In this document: positions 7,429 through 55,767 of the stretch, piece by piece
How positions within the stretch are numbered: position 1 is the first letter of the stretch
Layout of the letters: each line of letters begins with the position of its first letter
DNA from: Synechococcus sp. UW105
GTDB taxonomy: Bacteria > Cyanobacteriota > Cyanobacteriia > PCC-6307 > Cyanobiaceae
DNA: 64,000 nt
Reading direction: 5' to 3'
Assembly: GCF_900473935.1 (NCBI RefSeq)
Contig: NZ_UCNN01000030.1
Coordinates: forward strand, 124,001-188,000
The notes under the pieces: generated by a model
Database searches by the model: none
The model's input: only the letters and a program-made list of their open reading frames with translations
What the model was told of the DNA's origin: nothing
Made by a program: the position numbers and the translations under genes

Positions 7429-9426
7429 ATGGGGCGGATCGTCGGAATCGACCTGGGAACGACCAATTCCGTCGTTGCGGTGTTGGAAGCGGGTCGACCG
7501 CAGGTCATCGCGAACGCCGAGGGCACCCGTACCACACCATCAGTGCTTGGTTACACCAAGGATTCAGAACTTCTTGTTGGTCAGGCAGCTCGGCGTCAAC
7601 TGGTCCTCAACCCCAGAAATACGTTTTCCAATCTCAAACGCTTTGTAGGTCGCAGTTGGGATGAACTGGATGACAGCAGTCTGACGGTTCCATACACGGT
7701 TCGAGCCAATGCTCAGAACAACGTGCGCGTGGCCTGTCCAATCACGGAAAGGGAATACGCCCCTGAGGAATTGGTGGCCAGCATTCTTCGCAAGCTCGTT
7801 GATGATGCCGCCACCTATCTCGGTGAAAGCGTGGAAGCGGCGGTGATTACAGTCCCTGCCTATTTCAATGATGCCCAGCGTCAGTCCACCCGCGATGCCG
7901 GACGGCTCGCCGGGATTGAGGTTGAACGCATCCTTAACGAACCCACTGCAGCAGCTCTGGCCTATGGCTTTGATCGCAGTGCGGTGAAGCGTGTGTTGGT
8001 GTTTGACCTTGGTGGTGGCACCTTCGATGTCTCACTGTTGCGTGTGGCTAACGGTGTTTTTGATGTCAAGAGCACCAATGGAGACACCCAATTGGGTGGT
8101 AACGACTTCGATCAGCGCATTGTTGATTGGCTAGCAGAGGCTTTTTTGAAGGCTCACGGTATCGACCTACGTCGTGACAGGCAGGCTCTGCAGCGACTGA
8201 CAGAGGCAGCAGAAAAGGCCAAACAGGAGCTGTCTGGTGTTGTGATCACACCGATCTCACTACCTTTTATTGCCACAGGTACCGATGGTCCGCTTCACAT
8301 CGAAACCTCATTGGAACGCTCGACCTTCGAGGGTTTGTGTCCTGATTTGCTCGACCGTCTGCTCGTCCCCGTCCAATCAGCCTTGCGTGATTCTGGCTGG
8401 GCGGCAGACGATGTCGATGATGTGGTGCTGGTTGGTGGTGGCACGCGAATGCCGATGGTGCAGCAGCTTGTGCGCACTCTGATTCCTCACGATCCATGCC
8501 AATCAGTCAACCCGGATGAGGTTGTAGCCGTTGGGGCAGCTGTTCAAGCCGGGATTCTCACTGGAGAACTGCGTGATCTGTTGCTGAATGATGTGACACC
8601 ACTATCCCTAGGTCTTGAAACGGTGGGAGGGCTGATGAAGGTTTTGATTCCCCGCAACACTCCGATTCCCGTTCGCCAGTCGGATGTGTTCAGTACCTCC
8701 GAATCGAATCAGTCGTCGGTCGAGATTCATATTTGGCAGGGAGAACGTCAAATGGCCTCTGACAACAAATCGTTGGGACGGTTCCGTCTCTCCGGTATTC
8801 CTCCCGCTCCTCGGGGTGTCCCCCAGATTCAGGTCGCCTTTGACATCGACGCCAACGGCATCTTGCAAGTGAGTGCAACGGATCGAACCACTGGCAGAAA
8901 GCAATCAGTAACGATCCAAGGTGGATCGAATTTGAACGAAGACGAACTGCAGGCTCTGCTCGCCGAAGCTGAAGCTCGGGCCGATGAAGACCGTCGCACC
9001 CGTGCTGCGATTGAGCGCCGGAATAGGGCCCTGACGTTGGTCTCCCAGGCTGAACGTCGTTTAAGGGATGCGGCCCTCGAATTAGGTCCTTATGGGGCTG
9101 AGCGGCAGCAGCGTGCCGTGGAGATGGCCATGCGTGACCTCCAGGATCTTCTGGAACAGGATGATCTTCAGGAATTGGAACTGGGTGTTAGCGCTCTCCA
9201 GGAGGCCTTGTTTGGTCTCAATAAACGTTTGTCTGCAGAACGACGATCTGAGTCCAGTCCATTGCAGGGGATCAGAAACACCCTCGGTTCTCTGAAGGAT
9301 GAATTGTTCGCCGATGACGACTGGGACGAGGACCCCTGGTCGAGCCCCAGTGGCAGACCTTCCCAGGGCCGATACAGCTCATCAAGACAAGGGATGGATC
9401 CCTGGGATGATGACTTCTACCGCTGA
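7429..9426 (+). CDS. dnaK: Hsp70 chaperone DnaK (DnaK1 type)
   Basis: ATP-driven Hsp70 chaperone, 665 residues. The N-terminal ATPase domain begins MGRIVGIDLGTTNSVVAVLE and contains VFDLGGGTFDVSLL, NEPTAAALAYG and VVLVGGGTRMP. The substrate-binding domain follows (DVTPLSLGLETVGG). The C-terminus is charged and ends in a D/W-rich tail (DDDWDEDPW and DPWDDDFYR), not the EEVD-like or GG-rich tail of DnaK2. Cyanobacteria carry several dnaK genes. The sequence and tail fit DnaK1, whose role is less clear than that of the essential DnaK2. The downstream J-domain gene overlaps its last 20 bases, so the pair is probably co-translated. No CIRCE element was found upstream. Confidence 0.95.
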   Translation: MGRIVGIDLGTTNSVVAVLEAGRPQVIANAEGTRTTPSVLGYTKDSELLVGQAARRQLVLNPRNTFSNLKRFVGRSWDELDDSSLTVPYTVRANAQNNVRVACPITEREYAPEELVASILRKLVDDAATYLGESVEAAVITVPAYFNDAQRQSTRDAGRLAGIEVERILNEPTAAALAYGFDRSAVKRVLVFDLGGGTFDVSLLRVANGVFDVKSTNGDTQLGGNDFDQRIVDWLAEAFLKAHGIDLRRDRQALQRLTEAAEKAKQELSGVVITPISLPFIATGTDGPLHIETSLERSTFEGLCPDLLDRLLVPVQSALRDSGWAADDVDDVVLVGGGTRMPMVQQLVRTLIPHDPCQSVNPDEVVAVGAAVQAGILTGELRDLLLNDVTPLSLGLETVGGLMKVLIPRNTPIPVRQSDVFSTSESNQSSVEIHIWQGERQMASDNKSLGRFRLSGIPPAPRGVPQIQVAFDIDANGILQVSATDRTTGRKQSVTIQGGSNLNEDELQALLAEAEARADEDRRTRAAIERRNRALTLVSQAERRLRDAALELGPYGAERQQRAVEMAMRDLQDLLEQDDLQELELGVSALQEALFGLNKRLSAERRSESSPLQGIRNTLGSLKDELFADDDWDEDPWSSPSGRPSQGRYSSSRQGMDPWDDDFYR

Positions 9427-10339
9427 ACCCAATTACTGGTCCCTGCTCGGTCTCGAGCCAGATAGCGATGCGGATGCCCTAAAGCGGGCCTTCCGTCGTG
9501 AGGCAAGACGCTGGCATCCGGATTTGAATGCCAACGACAGGCAGGCAGAAGAGCGGTTCAAGTTGGTCAATGAGGCCTATGCGGTGCTCAGTGATCCGAA
9601 GCGGAGGCGCGCCTGGGAAGGACGCAGCATCGATCCCCCTTCCCATGTCGACCCCTTTGCCTCAGGCTTTCCAGACTTTGAGGATTACCTCGAGGTTGTG
9701 TTGGGTTTGGGCCGACGCCGGGCCAATGATGAAGACGATGAGGCACGGCAAACGGTGACCGATTCACCAGGTGACTCACAGCATTTTTCTGGTGATTGGC
9801 CGGCAACAGCCCCACCACCCCCACCTCCGCCTGTGCAGGCAGCGGAAACTCTTGAGACTGATGTTTTGCTCACGCCGGATCAGGCACTGTGCGGAACCGC
9901 TGTTGAGATTGAGCTCAGCGATGGAACCGTCGTTGAGGTGCTGACTCCACCTCAGGCCGGAGATGGCTGGAGGCTCAGGCTTGCCGGCGTGACCCCTGGG
10001 GGAGGAGATCACTTCCTCCATTTGCGAGTGCAAACGGAGGAGGGCCTTCGCATTGATGGGCTTCGCGTGCACTATCGCCTGGAGCTCCTACCCGCCGATG
10101 CTGCTCTGGGCTGTGCTGTTGACGTGCCGACTCTTACTGGACCGGTCACGCTCCAGGTGCCGCCAGGCTCCTCTAGCGGCCGGTTGCTGCGACTGCGAGG
10201 ACGAGGACTCGAATCGGACGATCGTCGGGGTGACCAATTGGTGGAGATCGTCGTTGTGATTCCTGCTCAGCTCACGGAGGCGGAGCGGGCTCTCTATCGA
10301 AGACTGCAAGAACTAGCTCTCGAAACTGAGCTCGACTGA
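9407..10339 (+). CDS. J-domain co-chaperone (DnaJ/CbpA-like)
   Basis: A 310-residue co-chaperone expected to stimulate the ATPase of the DnaK encoded just upstream. The J-domain is at the N-terminus (NYWSLLGLEPDSDADALKRA) with the HPD catalytic tripeptide at residues 37-39. A linker with a run of prolines follows (about residues 125-145), then one or two C-terminal beta domains as in CbpA or type II DnaJ (LTPDQALCGTAVEIELSDG). No zinc-finger cysteines are present, so this is not a type I DnaJ. The start at 9407 (MMTSTAEPNYW) fits the family and overlaps dnaK by 20 bases. A longer in-frame start at 9299 would add 36 residues that are out-of-frame dnaK sequence. Confidence 0.9.
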   Translation: MMTSTAEPNYWSLLGLEPDSDADALKRAFRREARRWHPDLNANDRQAEERFKLVNEAYAVLSDPKRRRAWEGRSIDPPSHVDPFASGFPDFEDYLEVVLGLGRRRANDEDDEARQTVTDSPGDSQHFSGDWPATAPPPPPPPVQAAETLETDVLLTPDQALCGTAVEIELSDGTVVEVLTPPQAGDGWRLRLAGVTPGGGDHFLHLRVQTEEGLRIDGLRVHYRLELLPADAALGCAVDVPTLTGPVTLQVPPGSSSGRLLRLRGRGLESDDRRGDQLVEIVVVIPAQLTEAERALYRRLQELALETELD

Positions 10340-50571: not shown

Positions 50572-51285
50572 ATGGCTGGAGATGAGGGTCACAACATCCC
50601 TTGCATCACAACCAAAGCCATGGCATCCAAACAAAGCAAGACAGCAGAGAGGGTCATTAATCAACTCTCGTTGGTGAAACCAATCGCTGCTCACTACGCA
50701 AGATCAACTGGGCAGGACCAAGACGATCTCATTCAGGTTGGTCGACTAGGCCTGATCAGAGCATCAAAACTCTTCATTGAGAGTGAGGGGAATCCATTCA
50801 CTGCCTTCGCTCGTGTTCATATTCGTGGCGCGATACCCCACTATTTACGGGATAACAGTGGCGTTGTGAAACTTCCGAGACGCATTCAGGAACGAGCACA
50901 ACGGCTGATCAGAGAATCGGCGGAACAAAGCAGTAGGGCGAATCAGAACAAGCGCACACAAGAAGATGAATGGATTCTTGCTGCTTACCGACAACAACGC
51001 CAATGGCTGTCAATTGACGACGAGCCGCTGGGAGCTCGATGCCATGCTCGAGATGAGAGCTGGCAGTGTGTCAACAGACGCGAGCGACAAGACAAGCTCA
51101 CTCGGTGTCTGCAGGCCTTATCGAAGCAGGAACGTCAGTGTGTGCAGTTGGTGATTCTGGAAGGACAAAGCCTGCGCGTGACAGCAGGCCAACTCGGCAC
51201 GAGCGCAATGACCGCGCAACGTCGCGTGAGGCGGGGTCTTATGCGACTGGCTGAACTGTGTGCTGTCCAAGGGCTCAGCGCCTAG
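50572..51285 (+). CDS. Alternative sigma-70-family factor
   Basis: A 237-residue sigma factor. Region 2 includes PIAAHYARSTGQDQDDLIQV, then GRLGLIRASKLF, and HIRGAIPHYLRDNSGVVKLP is the region 2-3 join typical of the group. Region 4 (LSKQERQCVQLVILEGQSLR, then VTAGQLGTSAMTAQRRVRRG) is a helix-turn-helix for the -35 element. It is smaller than a group 1 or 2 factor and fits a small group 3 factor. The first ATG follows directly on the adenylyltransferase stop. ATG at 50620 (MASKQSKTAERV) is an equally plausible start. A specific regulon cannot be told from the sequence. Confidence 0.85.
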   Translation: MAGDEGHNIPCITTKAMASKQSKTAERVINQLSLVKPIAAHYARSTGQDQDDLIQVGRLGLIRASKLFIESEGNPFTAFARVHIRGAIPHYLRDNSGVVKLPRRIQERAQRLIRESAEQSSRANQNKRTQEDEWILAAYRQQRQWLSIDDEPLGARCHARDESWQCVNRRERQDKLTRCLQALSKQERQCVQLVILEGQSLRVTAGQLGTSAMTAQRRVRRGLMRLAELCAVQGLSA

Positions 51286-51291
51286 ACCACG

Positions 51292-51405
51292 TCAGACCTG
51301 GTTGCTGCTGTCGCGATCCATTTGAGTCTCAAGGGTGGTGATGACTGCATTGATCGCAGCCAGTTGGCGCTCAAGACCGTCTCGCCAAAATCGCAACATG
51401 TCCAT
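51292..51405 (-). CDS. Possible very small protein
   Basis: A 37-residue frame, MDMLRFWRDGLERQLAAINA followed by VITTLETQMDRDSSNQV. It looks like one amphipathic helix. The same frame is open up to an ATG at 51474 (60 residues), but the extra part (PPFLCSPSPGREW) looks less like a protein. It lies convergent with the sigma-factor gene, 6 bp apart. The helical pattern and the acidic/basic balance argue against pure chance, but the evidence is thin. Confidence 0.38.
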   Translation of the reverse strand: MDMLRFWRDGLERQLAAINAVITTLETQMDRDSSNQV

Positions 51406-51574
51406 CTTGCGCGCCTGATGATGCTGGCGCCACTCCCTGCCGGGAGAAGGTGAGCACAGGAAGGGAGGAAGCATGAAACCCAGGAAACCCCGTCAATACT
51501 GGCGTATCGAAATCAGTTTCGCGAAGACACTTGGCTTCTGTCTGGAGAGTGTTTAAGTTTGAGGGCTGCGCAGT

Positions 51575-51590
51575 TTGTTCCACGGAACAA
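51575..51590. promoter_or_regulatory. Perfect 16-bp palindrome upstream of the DUF3370 gene
   Basis: The sequence TTGTTCC-AC-GGAACAA is a perfect inverted repeat of two 7-base arms with a 2-base centre. It lies 29 bases before the preferred start at 51620, in a position fit for an operator. The regulator is not known. It does not match the NtcA (GTA-N8-TAC) or PhoB patterns. Confidence 0.5.
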
Positions 51591-51619
51591 GTCATTCAAA
51601 ACCGCGCAGGGGGGCTCCC

Positions 51620-53248
51620 TTGTCTCAGCGAATCCCACTTCTAGTCCTGCTAGGCGTCTCGATTGCGACAGCCGAGATTTGCTTAACGCGTCCTGCCGCT
51701 GCATATGTGCCGTTGATGGCCGGTCAACGTGCTCGCGCTTTGAACGGAACGTTCAACAACGTACCGGTCTTGCATTCCAATCAACCAGAAATCGTCAAGG
51801 GGGCTGGGATCCTCGTTAATACCCAGCCAGGTACGGCCGTCGCCAGCGAGACAAACCAACCACTGCGCAATGCTGCCTTCACATTTAATGGTGAATTTGG
51901 ATTGCATATGCATCATAAGTATTACCCCAGTGATGCCAGTCGAATGGGAGGGGCAAGACAGCGGGGACTGTTGACAATCGCGGCCATCGCCATCAATCCA
52001 GGCAGCAAGCCTGTGACGTTGACGTTCAAGCGTGGATCCGTCAAAAACAGCTTTGAAGCTCCTTACCACCCAAACAGATTGATGGGGGTTAAACCGCTTG
52101 GTCGCAGACCATGGAATACCGGACCAGGAGACGCGACTGCAGTTCAAATGCTGCGAGGGGAGCTCGATAGGAAACTCCCCAATCAAGTCACGATCCCAGC
52201 TCACAGCAGGAAAGTGATCATCAGCACAGTGCTTCCTGCTCGAGGAATCGCGAATGGTCTACTGAGGGGAAGAAGCGATGGGCAGTTTCAGCTAGCCGTG
52301 GTTGCTGCAGAGGAAACCCAACAAGAATCTGATCTCCTAGCTGTGCTTGATCGTGGCCAATTAGCACCAGGGCGGATCTATTTGAATCGGATCAGAGAAA
52401 TTGAGACTGGTCAAGTCTTTTCAAGGGTTGCAGGTGTTGCCTTAGGCGATCACTATCAAGCTTCCATTCGCCATGACCTGGAACAAGGCTCCCTACACGT
52501 CCCACTGACAAGTACTCATAAACATCATTTTGGAACAAGAGAGATACAGATCAATCCTCTAAGCACAAGAATGATTGACTCTGCTGTCAATAATGTCGGG
52601 ACATACGGTGTTCGATATGACGTTGACTTGAATTTGGCTGGTGCCGGTGCTCATGATCTAGTTCTGAGTCATCCTGTTGCATCTGGCCGATCGTCATTCA
52701 CTGCATTTCGTGGATCAATTCGTATTGAAACTGAAGATGGTTTTCGAGAAGTGCATGTTGGCTTGCGCTCAGGTCAAAGTCTGCCAATCAGCGAGCTGCA
52801 GCTCAAACCTGGGCAGAATAATGCTGTGAAAGTAAGCCTTGTCTATCCCGCTGATGCAACACCAGGGCATTTACTCAGTGTTGTACCAGTGCAGCAACTT
52901 GCCATGATGAGGCGTCGGCAGGAGATGCAGGAAGCCGCACAACGTGCTCTAGCCACGTCAAAAGAACGGAAGGTCACACCGAGTGTTGCCCCACCATCGC
53001 CGACGGTTAAGCCAGTCGTGCCAGAACAGGTGCATCACAAACCTCGGCCGGCAACTCGCGCAACCTCAACGACGGTACCGATCCAGCCCAACAGCCCAGC
53101 CCCTTCGTACGTTTCTCCAAGGCGAGGAAGTAGTGCGATGCCACCAGCCATGATTTTGCCTCAGCAACTGAGTCCAAGTCTGGAACAGCGCTATCGCGAC
53201 GCCATACATGCTCAACAACAGTGGCTTGAGCGCATGCAAGGCCGATAG
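51620..53248 (+). CDS. DUF3370 exported protein
   Basis: A 542-residue protein of the cyanobacterial DUF3370 family. From the TTG at 51620 the protein begins LSQRIPLLVLLGVSIATAEI, a signal peptide with probable cleavage after RPAAA. A G-rich stretch (AGGGGGG) lies about 6 bases upstream. The frame is open to TTG at 51575, but that region holds a palindrome and spoils the signal peptide. The body is beta-rich (FTFNGEFGLHMHHKYYP, LTIAAIAINPGSKPVTLTF), and the last 130 residues are a Pro/Arg/Thr-rich linker with a short helix at the end (LEQRYRDAIHAQQQWLERM). The role is unknown. A cell-surface or periplasmic place is likely. Confidence 0.82.
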   Translation: MSQRIPLLVLLGVSIATAEICLTRPAAAYVPLMAGQRARALNGTFNNVPVLHSNQPEIVKGAGILVNTQPGTAVASETNQPLRNAAFTFNGEFGLHMHHKYYPSDASRMGGARQRGLLTIAAIAINPGSKPVTLTFKRGSVKNSFEAPYHPNRLMGVKPLGRRPWNTGPGDATAVQMLRGELDRKLPNQVTIPAHSRKVIISTVLPARGIANGLLRGRSDGQFQLAVVAAEETQQESDLLAVLDRGQLAPGRIYLNRIREIETGQVFSRVAGVALGDHYQASIRHDLEQGSLHVPLTSTHKHHFGTREIQINPLSTRMIDSAVNNVGTYGVRYDVDLNLAGAGAHDLVLSHPVASGRSSFTAFRGSIRIETEDGFREVHVGLRSGQSLPISELQLKPGQNNAVKVSLVYPADATPGHLLSVVPVQQLAMMRRRQEMQEAAQRALATSKERKVTPSVAPPSPTVKPVVPEQVHHKPRPATRATSTTVPIQPNSPAPSYVSPRRGSSAMPPAMILPQQLSPSLEQRYRDAIHAQQQWLERMQGR

Positions 53249-53273
53249 GCTTGGCCTGCAAGGTAGGAGTTGA

Positions 53274-54347
53274 GTGACTGAGTCTGAGTCCAACGATCGA
53301 CGCAGAATCAGTGTTGAGCTTCCAGACTCCCTCGTTCGACGTCTGGATGAGCTGAAGAGTGAATGGGGACTTCGTGCAAGAGGTGATTGCCTCAGTCGCT
53401 TGCTGGAGGAGATCTTCAATACTGACGACGAAGCCGACACGGATCACGCGGTCAACGACAGCACTGAACTGAACCCTGACCAACATCGTCATCAATCCGA
53501 CACTGGAGTTGAAACGGTTGGCGTTTCGACTCGTCAACCCAGTTACAACGAAGAACGTGCGTTGGTCCTGATCGGTAGAAGCAGCATTGAACTGGGAAAC
53601 CAAGACGACGACGAGCTCCCACCACCAAAGCGCCCAAGCGGAAACAGTGGGCCATCGAGCCCAGGAGGGATTGATTTACCCGGTTTCGTCCGCAAACGCA
53701 CCACTCAGATCAGAGAGAGCCTGCATCCCCGCCCCGGAGTGGAGCCGTCTGGAGATGCACCTTTGATGCCTGCAGCCAACGAACAGGATTTACTCGCCAG
53801 TGCCAGTGCTGCTGGCGAGCACTGGCTCAATCTTTACGGAACTGCAGCTGGAGAAACCGTGTTGGAAGCAGCGATGACTTGGCTTGGCAGAGATATCTGG
53901 CCCAATGCGGAAGTCAGTGAAGGCCGAACGTTTACTTGGTCGCAGGCGACCGATGTGATCAACAACATGTGTCCAGGCTGGTTGGAACCCACGCCGCGAT
54001 TCGAGCAGGTGATGGTGGTTGCAGGCCTATTGGAAGATCCCTTCGCAACCTCGGAGCTCGTACACAGAATTCCAACCCTGATTCGGCGATTCGTAAACCG
54101 TTTCAAGAGAAGCCGAAAAGTGACCTCCTTTCAGACACTCGAATCAACCATGACCGTGCATGGAGCACTCAAACTGCTCGCATTGCCAACCCAAGCAGGG
54201 GCATCACTGACGCTGAAAGTGATTCGCGAAGCGTACAAAAAGCAGGCGATGGATGTGCATCCAGACGCTGGCGGGTCGACTGAAGCGATGCGTCGCCTGA
54301 ACGAGGCGTACCAGATGCTTCGCGAGCTCTATCGCCAAAAAAGCTAG
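53274..54347 (+). CDS. Ribbon-helix-helix / J-domain fusion protein
   Basis: A 357-residue protein with an unusual pair of domains. Residues about 8-50 (RRISVELPDSLVRRLDELKS, then RARGDCLSRLLEEIF) form a ribbon-helix-helix DNA-binding motif like CopG/Arc. Residues about 60-165 are polar and probably disordered. The middle (about 170-300) is a helical region (GETVLEAAMTWLGRDIWPNA, then TFTWSQATDVINNMCPGW). The C-terminal region (TLKVIREAYKKQAMDVHPDA, then MRRLNEAYQMLRELYRQ) is a J-domain with the HPD tripeptide intact at 329-331. The start is likely GTG at 53274, 26 bp after the DUF3370 stop. A J-domain at the C-terminus joined to a DNA-binding domain suggests recruitment of an Hsp70 to DNA or to a nucleoprotein complex. 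Confidence 0.8.
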   Translation: MTESESNDRRRISVELPDSLVRRLDELKSEWGLRARGDCLSRLLEEIFNTDDEADTDHAVNDSTELNPDQHRHQSDTGVETVGVSTRQPSYNEERALVLIGRSSIELGNQDDDELPPPKRPSGNSGPSSPGGIDLPGFVRKRTTQIRESLHPRPGVEPSGDAPLMPAANEQDLLASASAAGEHWLNLYGTAAGETVLEAAMTWLGRDIWPNAEVSEGRTFTWSQATDVINNMCPGWLEPTPRFEQVMVVAGLLEDPFATSELVHRIPTLIRRFVNRFKRSRKVTSFQTLESTMTVHGALKLLALPTQAGASLTLKVIREAYKKQAMDVHPDAGGSTEAMRRLNEAYQMLRELYRQKS

Positions 54348-54846
54348 GCTTGCCTGTCTCTTCTGCGTCTAAAGGCTGGACCTAGATTGCGTCACAAGTG
54401 CGACAAGCCAGACAGGCCATTCGCTCCTTGGCGGACGGGGAGAACTCGCAACGTTGACTGGAGAGGCGCTGGTGGAAGGTGCGTCAAGTACGAAGCCACT
54501 GCGTTGCGTCTCGGCAATGCCATTCATTAACACGGGAAATCATCAGGGAGGAAGGCACAATCGCGATCACGGCAGTGATCACAAGATCACGGTTGCTCTG
54601 CTTGCCATTGGTCACTGCACCTGCTGGAGACCAACAGGAATGTCGACCGCGCCTAACCATCAAGAAGTCTTTTTTCAATCATTCCAATTGATGCCACTAC
54701 AGGAACACTGGTCGCCAAGAGCTGGACAGAAACAAGTGCTCCAACAACAAATATGGTCGATCGATGCAGAGACTGATGTCCAGAGCGTTCGTGACAACGG
54801 TCCAGCGGTCCTTTGATTGGGGGAAAAGACTGGCACAACTGGCTTT

Positions 54847-54891
54847 TTCAACCCTGCGTACCTGCTGTAGACACAGGTACGCAGGGTTGAA
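54847..54891. repeat. Perfect 18-bp inverted repeat
   Basis: The arms TTCAACCCTGCGTACCTG (54847-54864) and CAGGTACGCAGGGTTGAA (54874-54891) pair without mismatch around the 9-base loop CTGTAGACA. In RNA it would form a very stable stem. It is not followed by a T run on either strand, so it is not a classic terminator. It may be part of a small RNA or a protein-binding site. Confidence 0.85.
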
Positions 54892-54999
54892 CCATTGATC
54901 TAGCGCCTGCCGATGAGCTTCATGGTCAACGGGAAGCAGCAAAGGCTGAGCGAAGGGACCTAGCCCAAAGGAGGCGCGGCATCTTGGTATTGCCAATCC

Positions 55000-55028
55000 A
55001 AAACAAGACTCAATGCGAGTCTTGTTTT
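55000..55028. terminator. Bidirectional terminator-like hairpin
   Basis: The arms AAAACAAGACTC (55000-55011) and GAGTCTTGTTTT (55017-55028) pair perfectly around AATGC. Because the outer part is A on one arm and T on the other, it looks like an intrinsic terminator from either side. No annotated gene ends here on the plus strand within 650 bp, which suggests an unannotated transcript. Confidence 0.65.
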
Positions 55029-55217
55029 ACGTCTAATTCGATATTGAGAAGAGAGGTAAGAGAGCAGATTCCGGTTGGAGCCCAGAGCCTCAGGCTGCAC
55101 AGGGCAAGCGTTGAGCTCTGAGGGCAAAAAAACTAGTCTCACGAGAATCTTCTGGGTCTTACGACTAGTCTCGTGCCACGTCTCATTCAAGCCCGATGCG
55201 ACGATTCTCTGGTCATG

Positions 55218-55243
55218 AAAAAGCCGGTGGTGTCACCGGCTTT
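55218..55243 (-). terminator. Intrinsic terminator of apcD
   Basis: The stem AAAGCCGGTG / CACCGGCTTT with loop GTGT (55220-55243) is extended by two further A residues on its left. Read on the minus strand it is a GC-rich hairpin followed by five T residues. It lies about 30 bases behind the apcD stop. Confidence 0.88.
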
Positions 55244-55272
55244 GCTTGGAGATTCAGGGGAACAAGGCCTGA

Positions 55273-55767
55273 TCAGGTTGGGGTCTGCATTCCCAAAATG
55301 AGGAAATCGAAGTATGGGGAAGCGAGTGTTTGCTGATCATCAGAGAGAAGTGCAAGTGCAGCAGCCCGCATCGCTTTCATGGCTTCAACCATGCCAGGCA
55401 TCGGAACGCCAAGGCTGTTGTACATCTCACGCGCACCGACCAAGCCGATGTTCTGGATCATCTCAGTGCTGCCAGCAAGAACGCCATACGTCACTAAGCG
55501 CAGGTACCAGCTGTAATCACGCAGGCACTGGGCACGTTGCTTCTGACCATAGGCATTGCCACCTGGTGCCACATATTCAGGCTTTCGGCTGAACAGTTGT
55601 TTAGCCGACTCATCAACGATCTTCTTTTCGTTGTCCGTCAGGGTACGGACAACGGCGAGACGGACGGCACCTTGGTCGAGGAAATCGACCATGGAGCGCA
55701 ATTCACCGCTTGTTGGATAGCGGAGATCGTCATCAGCCTGGAGAATCAGATCCCGAACAACGCTCAT
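55273..55767 (-). CDS. apcD: Allophycocyanin alpha-B subunit ApcD
   Basis: Phycobilisome core subunit that acts as a terminal energy emitter toward photosystem I. The protein has 164 residues from MSVVRDLILQADDDLRYPTS. The bilin-binding region is YGQKQRAQCLRDYSWYLRLV with the chromophore cysteine, and it ends PYFDFLILGMQTP. The sequence agrees with ApcD rather than ApcA or ApcF by its start (SVV..ILxADDxLRYPxSGEL) and by KEMYNSL-type REMYNSLGVPMPGM. A start at 55779 (MPAVMSVV) is possible, but the family begins at the inner ATG. A hairpin spans 55800-55832 just upstream, and a clear terminator follows. Monocistronic. Confidence 0.93.
   Translation of the reverse strand: MSVVRDLILQADDDLRYPTSGELRSMVDFLDQGAVRLAVVRTLTDNEKKIVDESAKQLFSRKPEYVAPGGNAYGQKQRAQCLRDYSWYLRLVTYGVLAGSTEMIQNIGLVGAREMYNSLGVPMPGMVEAMKAMRAAALALLSDDQQTLASPYFDFLILGMQTPT

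Follow-up and report, generated by a model that had tools for sequence, protein, structure and literature searches.

What could a picocyanobacterium do with a protein that appears to join a ribbon-helix-helix (RHH) domain, from a family of DNA-binding proteins, to a J-domain, from a family that recruits Hsp70? The question is raised by a gene, here called RHH-J, in a 64,000-nucleotide stretch of the Synechococcus sp. UW105 genome (the window, to which all coordinates refer), where an initial annotation, made from the sequence alone, had placed both domains in one open reading frame. We investigated the protein, its relatives and its genomic surroundings computationally.

Domain organization of the RHH-J protein

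The host genome is 2.66 Mb in size. In the window sequence, the RHH-J frame contains no start codon upstream of the GTG listed below and none other in the next 20 codons. Many members of the protein family also appear to start with GTG or TTG, even where the genome is AT-rich and ATG would be the expected choice, the start codons of these members having been chosen automatically. The protein encoded at locus L038 of Synechococcus sp. UW140 is 89% identical to the window protein. From the N to the C terminus, the protein consists of the RHH domain, a variable linker, a conserved middle domain and a J-domain with its HPD motif.

53274–54347, + strand: RHH-J gene, 357 aa, GTG start, stop included
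53298–53417, + strand: RHH domain, residues 9–48, RRRISVELPDSLVRRLDELKSEWGLRARGDCLSRLLEEIF (PF01402 in family members, residue conservation, dN of about 0 against G029)
53418–53663, + strand: variable linker, residues 49–130, with one conserved A-L/I-V-L motif at 96–99 (alignment, residue counts, dN/dS)
53664–54155, + strand: middle domain, residues 131–294, GIDLPGFV ... RIPTLIRRFVNRFKRSR (alignment, selection; no recognized relative)
54156–54335, + strand: C-terminal J-domain, residues 295–354 (PF00226, PDB profile matches, residue conservation)
54258–54266, + strand: HPD motif, residues 329–331 (71 of 71 family proteins)

The only Pfam matches of the window protein at E ≤ 10 were DnaJ and RHH_1. 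The annotated combination of an RHH motif and a C-terminal J-domain in a single frame was borne out, by a match to PF00226 above the cut-off and, for the RHH domain, at the level of the family; the HPD motif was found at residues 329–331, as annotated.

The J-domain is a firm assignment from the sequence. PF00226 matched the window protein with an E value of 2.2e-6 (28.1 bits, cut-off 27.8) over residues 313–350, corresponding to profile positions 13–54 of 63, and matched 21 of 21 aligned family members at E ≤ 1. HPD is intact in all 71 distinct family proteins examined, a set that includes the window protein and, being drawn from the best matches per search, is biased to closer relatives. Also conserved are R318 (71/71), Y321 (69/71), a K or R at position 322 (71/71), and N343 and E344 (71/71); the residues that we take to face Hsp70 are kept. 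As in class C J-proteins, HPD lies between helices II and III, with no match to the DnaJ zinc finger or to DnaJ_C (PF01556). The best PDB matches of the family profile were the J-domains of polyomavirus T antigens, 1faf (E 4.9e-4) and 1gh6 (E 8.3e-4).

An AlphaFold model from two sequences, the window protein and L038, had a pLDDT of 34, with helices at residues 18–29 and 35–48 and no ribbon strand in what is a monomer model. The isolated J-domain was modeled at a pLDDT of 60 as three helices, with HPD between the second and third; Foldseek with this model returned no significant match (best E 1.1) and no J-domain among 37 matches. These AlphaFold and Foldseek outcomes are uninformative, and as models they provide no evidence against the domain calls.

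The RHH assignment is good, but it rests on the family rather than on the window protein alone. PF01402 matched the window protein with an E value of 0.012 and 16.0 bits, under the cut-off of 20.5. It matched 17 of the 21 aligned members at E ≤ 1 (best 4.2e-6), a count of matches at that threshold and not of members passing the Pfam cut-off. The strand-helix-helix sequence motif of the RHH (MetJ/Arc/CopG) superfamily is thus found at the family level, the window protein itself scoring below the cut-off. NCBIfam NikR models matched the RHH domain of some members (best E 4.9e-4). In PDB profile searches, the sole RHH chains were those of the CopG-family regulator 7by2 and of NikR (1q5v and 2bj1), with weak E values of 0.13–0.84. 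A profile of the RHH domain only, searched against the PDB, gave nothing significant and no solved RHH structure at E < 0.3, the top-ranked chain being an unrelated cytochrome (E 0.35).

Residue conservation is high in this domain. Among the 71 proteins, R11 is kept in 64, I12 in 65, a serine or threonine at position 13 in 69, and L44 in 71, and the R-x-R-G turn is conserved (R34 in 70, R36 in 70, G37 in 71). The initial annotation had named the disappearance of HPD or of RHH contact residues from relatives as evidence against its reading; the counts above for HPD, R36, G37, S/T13 and R11 speak for their retention. The third outward position of the strand, position 15, is glutamate or aspartate in 60 of the 71 proteins. 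By analogy with Arc, CopG and NikR, we expect this position to face DNA; those proteins carry Arg, Thr or similar DNA-contacting residues there, and an acid, to judge from the sequence, could weaken base contacts.

Solo RHH-like proteins of 61–75 aa that resemble the RHH domain of the fusion are encoded in other genomes of the same taxonomic family (L066:1477-1662, L067:1495-1722 and L062:1498-1710). One of the three matched RHH_1, under the cut-off (E 0.0077), and two matched nothing. At the position that is acidic in the fusion they carry Arg (L066), Glu (L067) and Asn (L062), a variation that does not decide between DNA contact and dimerization only.

Selection on the protein and its middle domain

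Compared with G029, the nearest relative in the same genus, dN/dS was about 0 for the RHH domain (40 codons), 0.35 for the linker (82 codons), 0.045 for the middle domain (164 codons), and 0.011 for the J-domain (60 codons). Identity to G005, at which distance synonymous sites are saturated, was 88% for the RHH domain, 30% for the linker, 73% for the middle domain, and 87% for the J-domain. Purifying selection acts strongly on the RHH domain, middle domain and J-domain, and the linker is left to drift. Constraint on both ends and on the middle, with a free linker, is the pattern expected of a two-ended tether. The linker sequence is variable, yet the spacer exists in 21 of 21 aligned members, and V98 of its A96-L/I-V-L99 motif is present in 71 of 71 family proteins.

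The middle domain is nearly as constrained as both ends of the protein, a feature that the initial annotation overlooked. It contains the motif GIDLPGFV and a nearly invariant basic stretch, RIPTLIRRFVNRFKRSR, which we read as amphipathic. The region had been described as helical; the AlphaFold secondary structure agrees with this, in a model of very low confidence (pLDDT 34). The middle domain gave no outstanding match in Pfam, NCBIfam or the PDB, and the scattered matches of single members over it, like those of ERCC-6 chains (E 0.11–0.13), look like chance. Among the genomes searched here, the domain was found in one family only.

A second C-terminal J-protein of about 260–285 aa is encoded in several genomes of the family, including the host's own (G000:C2:218884-219021, L132) and those represented by L029, L030, and L061; it has a coiled-coil-like start and a middle region unlike that of RHH-J. 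Two weak matches over residues 155–350 had hinted at a middle domain common to the two proteins. Sharing was rejected with blastp and hhalign on four members, in which the J-domain alone aligned and the middle domain scored a probability of 0.13 out of 100.

Prevalence and probable losses of the gene

To examine the prevalence of RHH-J, we searched genomes of the same genus, family, and class. In the genus, 29 of 31 genomes gave some match and 28 of these matches were full-length; G016 has the J-domain only, and none was found in G015 or G026. The absence from G015 may be an assembly gap, since the neighboring gene lies very near a contig end. In the family sample, 259 of 300 genomes matched at E ≤ 1e-3 and 247 at E ≤ 2.2e-15, among them nearly complete genomes of 1.6–1.9 Mb, in line with the suggestion in the initial annotation that the architecture may be frequent in picocyanobacteria. 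The stricter count excludes 12 of the 259 genomes that matched only above E 1e-10 (single domains or fragments), and includes four between 1e-24 and 1e-14 that may be partial. When completeness of 90% or more and contamination of no more than 5% were required, 197 genomes remained, of which 183 matched, 181 of them strongly.

A class-wide profile search gave matches in 118 of 388 genomes. Of these, 64 belong to the same family, 63 being full-length; the remaining one, in G239, is a short RHH match with stops. The 54 matches outside the family had a best E value of 2e-8 or weaker and, among the matches listed, covered the J-domain only. From this distribution, RHH-J probably arose in the ancestor of the family or earlier, unless it has changed beyond recognition elsewhere.

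G279 and G055 lack RHH-J and keep flanking genes; the sigma factor, DUF3370, and RHH-J genes are missing there, and G279 carries about 10 kb of other DNA. RHH-J is also missing from G038 and G078, where synteny is weaker. In a tree of the neighboring Apa2 gene (a single-gene tree, midpoint-rooted and with weak supports), the gene-less genomes fall on at least three separate branches among carriers, and with this scattering the absences look like losses. Essentiality of RHH-J is not supported, as several lineages lack the gene; it is conserved but not indispensable.

Genomic neighborhood

Regions of about 20 kb were compared in 22 genomes carrying the gene, and a common gene order was widely kept: Apa2, sigma factor, DUF3370, RHH-J, phycobilisome protein, RNA methyltransferase, and pheT. 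Neighbor domains were assigned with Pfam, except for pheT, and Apa2 and pheT are the names that we presume to apply. Upstream of RHH-J in the window are the following genes:

50572–51285, + strand: sigma-70-like factor gene, upstream of DUF3370 (PF04542, PF04545, PF08281); same strand in 15 of 22 loci
51575–53248, + strand: DUF3370 gene, 25 bp upstream of RHH-J (PF11850, E 7.5e-103)

The DUF3370 gene, which had also escaped the initial annotation, lies immediately upstream of RHH-J on the same strand in 16 of the 22 loci, with a spacing of 2–45 bp in 15 and an overlap, by an estimated start, in one. Co-transcription of DUF3370 and RHH-J is likely. In the remaining six loci, all from small genomes, the region showed no DUF3370 and no sigma factor gene, and at least three of these six genomes (G033, G040, and G047) have no DUF3370 anywhere. 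DUF3370, which was found in 186 of 300 genomes of the family, is accordingly not supported as an obligate partner, RHH-J occurring without an adjoining copy in 6 of 22 loci. The DUF3370 protein of the window is likely secreted, judging from its N terminus, and a second copy is encoded elsewhere in the genome; the family was not named in the open-licence literature searched.

A short ORF of 60 aa with no Pfam match (window 51292–51474, − strand) adjoins the locus in 25 of 26 compared regions. It is present even where RHH-J is missing, and is divergent from RHH-J in five small-genome loci. Between RHH-J and the phycobilisome gene lie about 925 bp (54348–55272), which contain an 18-bp perfect inverted repeat (54847–54864 and 54874–54891) and two further perfect hairpins (55000–55028 and 55220–55243). 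Rfam gave no match in 51200–55400.

Upstream DNA was scanned for an operator of RHH-J, and these scans established none, yielding a weak lead only. No inverted repeats were found in 53200–53340, and six short ones were found in 51286–51640, upstream of DUF3370. Promoter and terminator counts were at chance (2 versus 1.9 and 3 versus 4.0, respectively). Upstream sequences of one small-genome genus (17 of 20 stretches aligned) show 92% conservation overall, which leaves footprinting there without power. The lead is a 20-bp AT-rich string located at the same distance before RHH-J in three sequences of two genera (L040, L047, and L077) from small-genome lineages. In a third genus (L035), 15 of its 20 letters are present, a level reached by 6 of 300 shuffles; the window and the remaining 7 of the 11 upstream regions do not have the string. 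Eleven of 13 upstream regions were compared, two being left out for lacking a required short residue string, and the evidence is partly circular in that the string was taken from the three sequences sharing it. From its sequence and placement, the string is a possible candidate operator or promoter, to be treated as a lead only.

Proposed function and alternatives

The host genome encodes seven J-domain matches above the cut-off and two full-length Hsp70s, together with three partial matches. One Hsp70 gene lies in the window, with a gene for a DnaJ (DnaJ and DnaJ_C domains) downstream of it (7429–10339 together); the two ORFs overlap, and the DnaJ start is probably internal. The initial annotation had named three partners, DnaK1, DnaK2, and DnaK3; the genome has two full-length Hsp70 genes, a number that fits the reported absence of DnaK1 from marine picocyanobacteria (PMC9239167).

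By membership of their families, the RHH domain would dimerize and bind DNA and the J-domain would stimulate Hsp70. Joined in one chain, the RHH dimer would bind one or a few chromosomal sites, and the flexible linker would allow the remainder of the protein to extend away from them. A specific client or partner would be held by the middle domain, and the C-terminal J-domain would recruit Hsp70 (the housekeeping DnaK or that encoded in the window) and trigger its ATPase, after which the protein complex on or near the bound DNA would be remodeled or dissociated. The client-binding role of the middle domain and the nature of the target are guesses. We consider it the most likely reading, at about an even chance, that RHH-J is a DNA-tethered co-chaperone concentrating DnaK at specific DNA sites. 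In favor of a tether are the joint conservation of J-domain and RHH residues, the retention of the gene in genomes of 1.6–1.9 Mb, the availability of two Hsp70s, and the precedents of Mdj1 and CbpA, J-proteins for which binding to DNA is important; against it are the window RHH score below the Pfam cut-off, the RHH-only profile with no solved RHH structure at E < 0.3, the acidic position 15, and the operator scans. The fuller version, in which the RHH domain reads chromosomal sites and the J-domain loads DnaK on a defined nucleoprotein complex (regulator, replication, or partition) in the routine, non-stress physiology of picocyanobacteria, is our tentative reading, possible at somewhat less than an even chance.

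Two of these points against a DNA tether would favor an RHH domain that serves as a dimerization or protein-binding module only, in a specialized cytosolic J-protein whose middle domain binds the client with no DNA contact. An acid at position 15 in 60 of 71 proteins and an RHH score under the Pfam cut-off are what this would predict, whereas the retention of R11 in 64 and of S/T13 in 69 of the 71 proteins, and of the R-x-R-G turn, argues for a DNA-facing surface; we regard the module-only role as unlikely. Many RHH proteins are repressors, and RHH-J might instead be a chaperone-gated transcription factor. Its RHH domain would act as an autoregulating repressor that DnaK, brought by the J-domain, strips from DNA or holds inactive, so that free DnaK sets the expression of target genes. 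Precedents are the Anabaena RHH protein TrcR, an autoregulated repressor (PMC10272220), and the removal of Hsf1 from DNA by Hsc70 and DnaJB1 (PMC7360973). In five of the six loci without DUF3370, moreover, a small gene diverges from RHH-J at a distance of 88–226 bp, and an operator could naturally be situated in such an interval. A factor of this kind would have no need of the large conserved middle domain, however, and the upstream scans did not establish an operator; we regard a gated repressor as unlikely, too.

RHH folds are common in antitoxins, and 4 of 21 members weakly matched the BrnA antitoxin model (best E 0.012), which would suit a regulator of antitoxin or mobile-element type that has gained a J-domain. 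Synteny largely refutes such an origin, RHH-J being widely conserved within a syntenic block, and the search results run against it as well. Plasmid records gave 0 matches at E ≤ 1e-3 among 72,556, and the gene is in a conserved chromosomal block, so that the link to plasmid-type complexes raised in the initial annotation is not supported. Fourteen phage records matched, the eight listed covering 18–25% of the query, all inside residues 261–351; 11 viral loci matched inside residues 281–355 only, that is, in the J-region. In PHROGs, the J-region had six matches, all to families without a known function (best E 4.6e-10), and the RHH domain had a single weak match to a repressor (E 0.077). A plasmid or phage origin was rejected on these plasmid, phage, and viral results, and a known defense protein was rejected in the absence of a PADLOC match. 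We hold an antitoxin-like or mobile-element regulator to be very improbable.

Comparison with known systems

J-domain proteins, RHH proteins, and J-proteins that bind DNA through other parts (CbpA, Mdj1, and T antigens) are already known. Polyomavirus large T antigens, whose J-domains are the best PDB matches of RHH-J over the J-domain only, carry a J-domain and a DNA-binding domain in one chain; their J-domain is N-terminal, and their origin-binding domain is unrelated to RHH. NikR and CopG share the RHH motif, with weak or modest matches to RHH-J, and are without a J-domain. The matches stop short of the C-terminal domain of NikR, which binds metal. We know of no RHH domain in Mdj1, the yeast mitochondrial Hsp40. 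Mdj1 resembles the proposed RHH-J in being a DNA-tethered J-protein: DNA binding holds it at the nucleoid, and the maintenance of DNA depends both on the function of its J-domain and on its association with the nucleoid (PMC3750215). It differs in having a zinc-finger-like region and CTD1/2 (PMC3750215).

E. coli CbpA is similar in that a single bacterial protein acts as a co-chaperone of DnaK and also binds DNA (PMC4344490, PMC4063869). Its J-domain is N-terminal (PMC4063869), and it binds the minor groove via R116, without the motifs of other bacterial DNA-binding proteins (PMC4344490). By contrast, RHH-J has a C-terminal J-domain (residues 313–350 of 357), no DnaJ_C, and a separate, fused RHH domain; the CbpA layout of an N-terminal J-domain followed by DnaJ_C was not found in the window protein, which has no PF01556 match. 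In Myxococcus xanthus, the RHH nucleoid protein of the CdbA/CdbS system is genetically linked to PilZ-DnaK chaperones, but the RHH and DnaK parts are separate proteins (PMC10313047).

No description of an RHH and J-domain fusion was found among the best matches in the open-licence literature searched, consistent with the initial impression that the architecture is unfamiliar from bacteria; it may stand in domain-architecture databases. PMC7354497, in which all the relevant terms occur, has them in contexts unconnected with such a fusion. Few photosynthetic cells on Earth are as abundant as picocyanobacteria, and the role of a gene that is retained even where their genomes are small is probably a basic one. 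What appears to be new here, as predicted from sequence, is a dedicated RHH-type DNA-recognition domain fused to a J-domain in a chain that also has a middle domain of its own, for which no relative was found outside the family. If the RHH domain reads specific DNA, RHH-J would give bacteria a J-protein addressed to particular sequences, and would make it possible to ask directly at which places the chromosome needs Hsp70, and for what reason.
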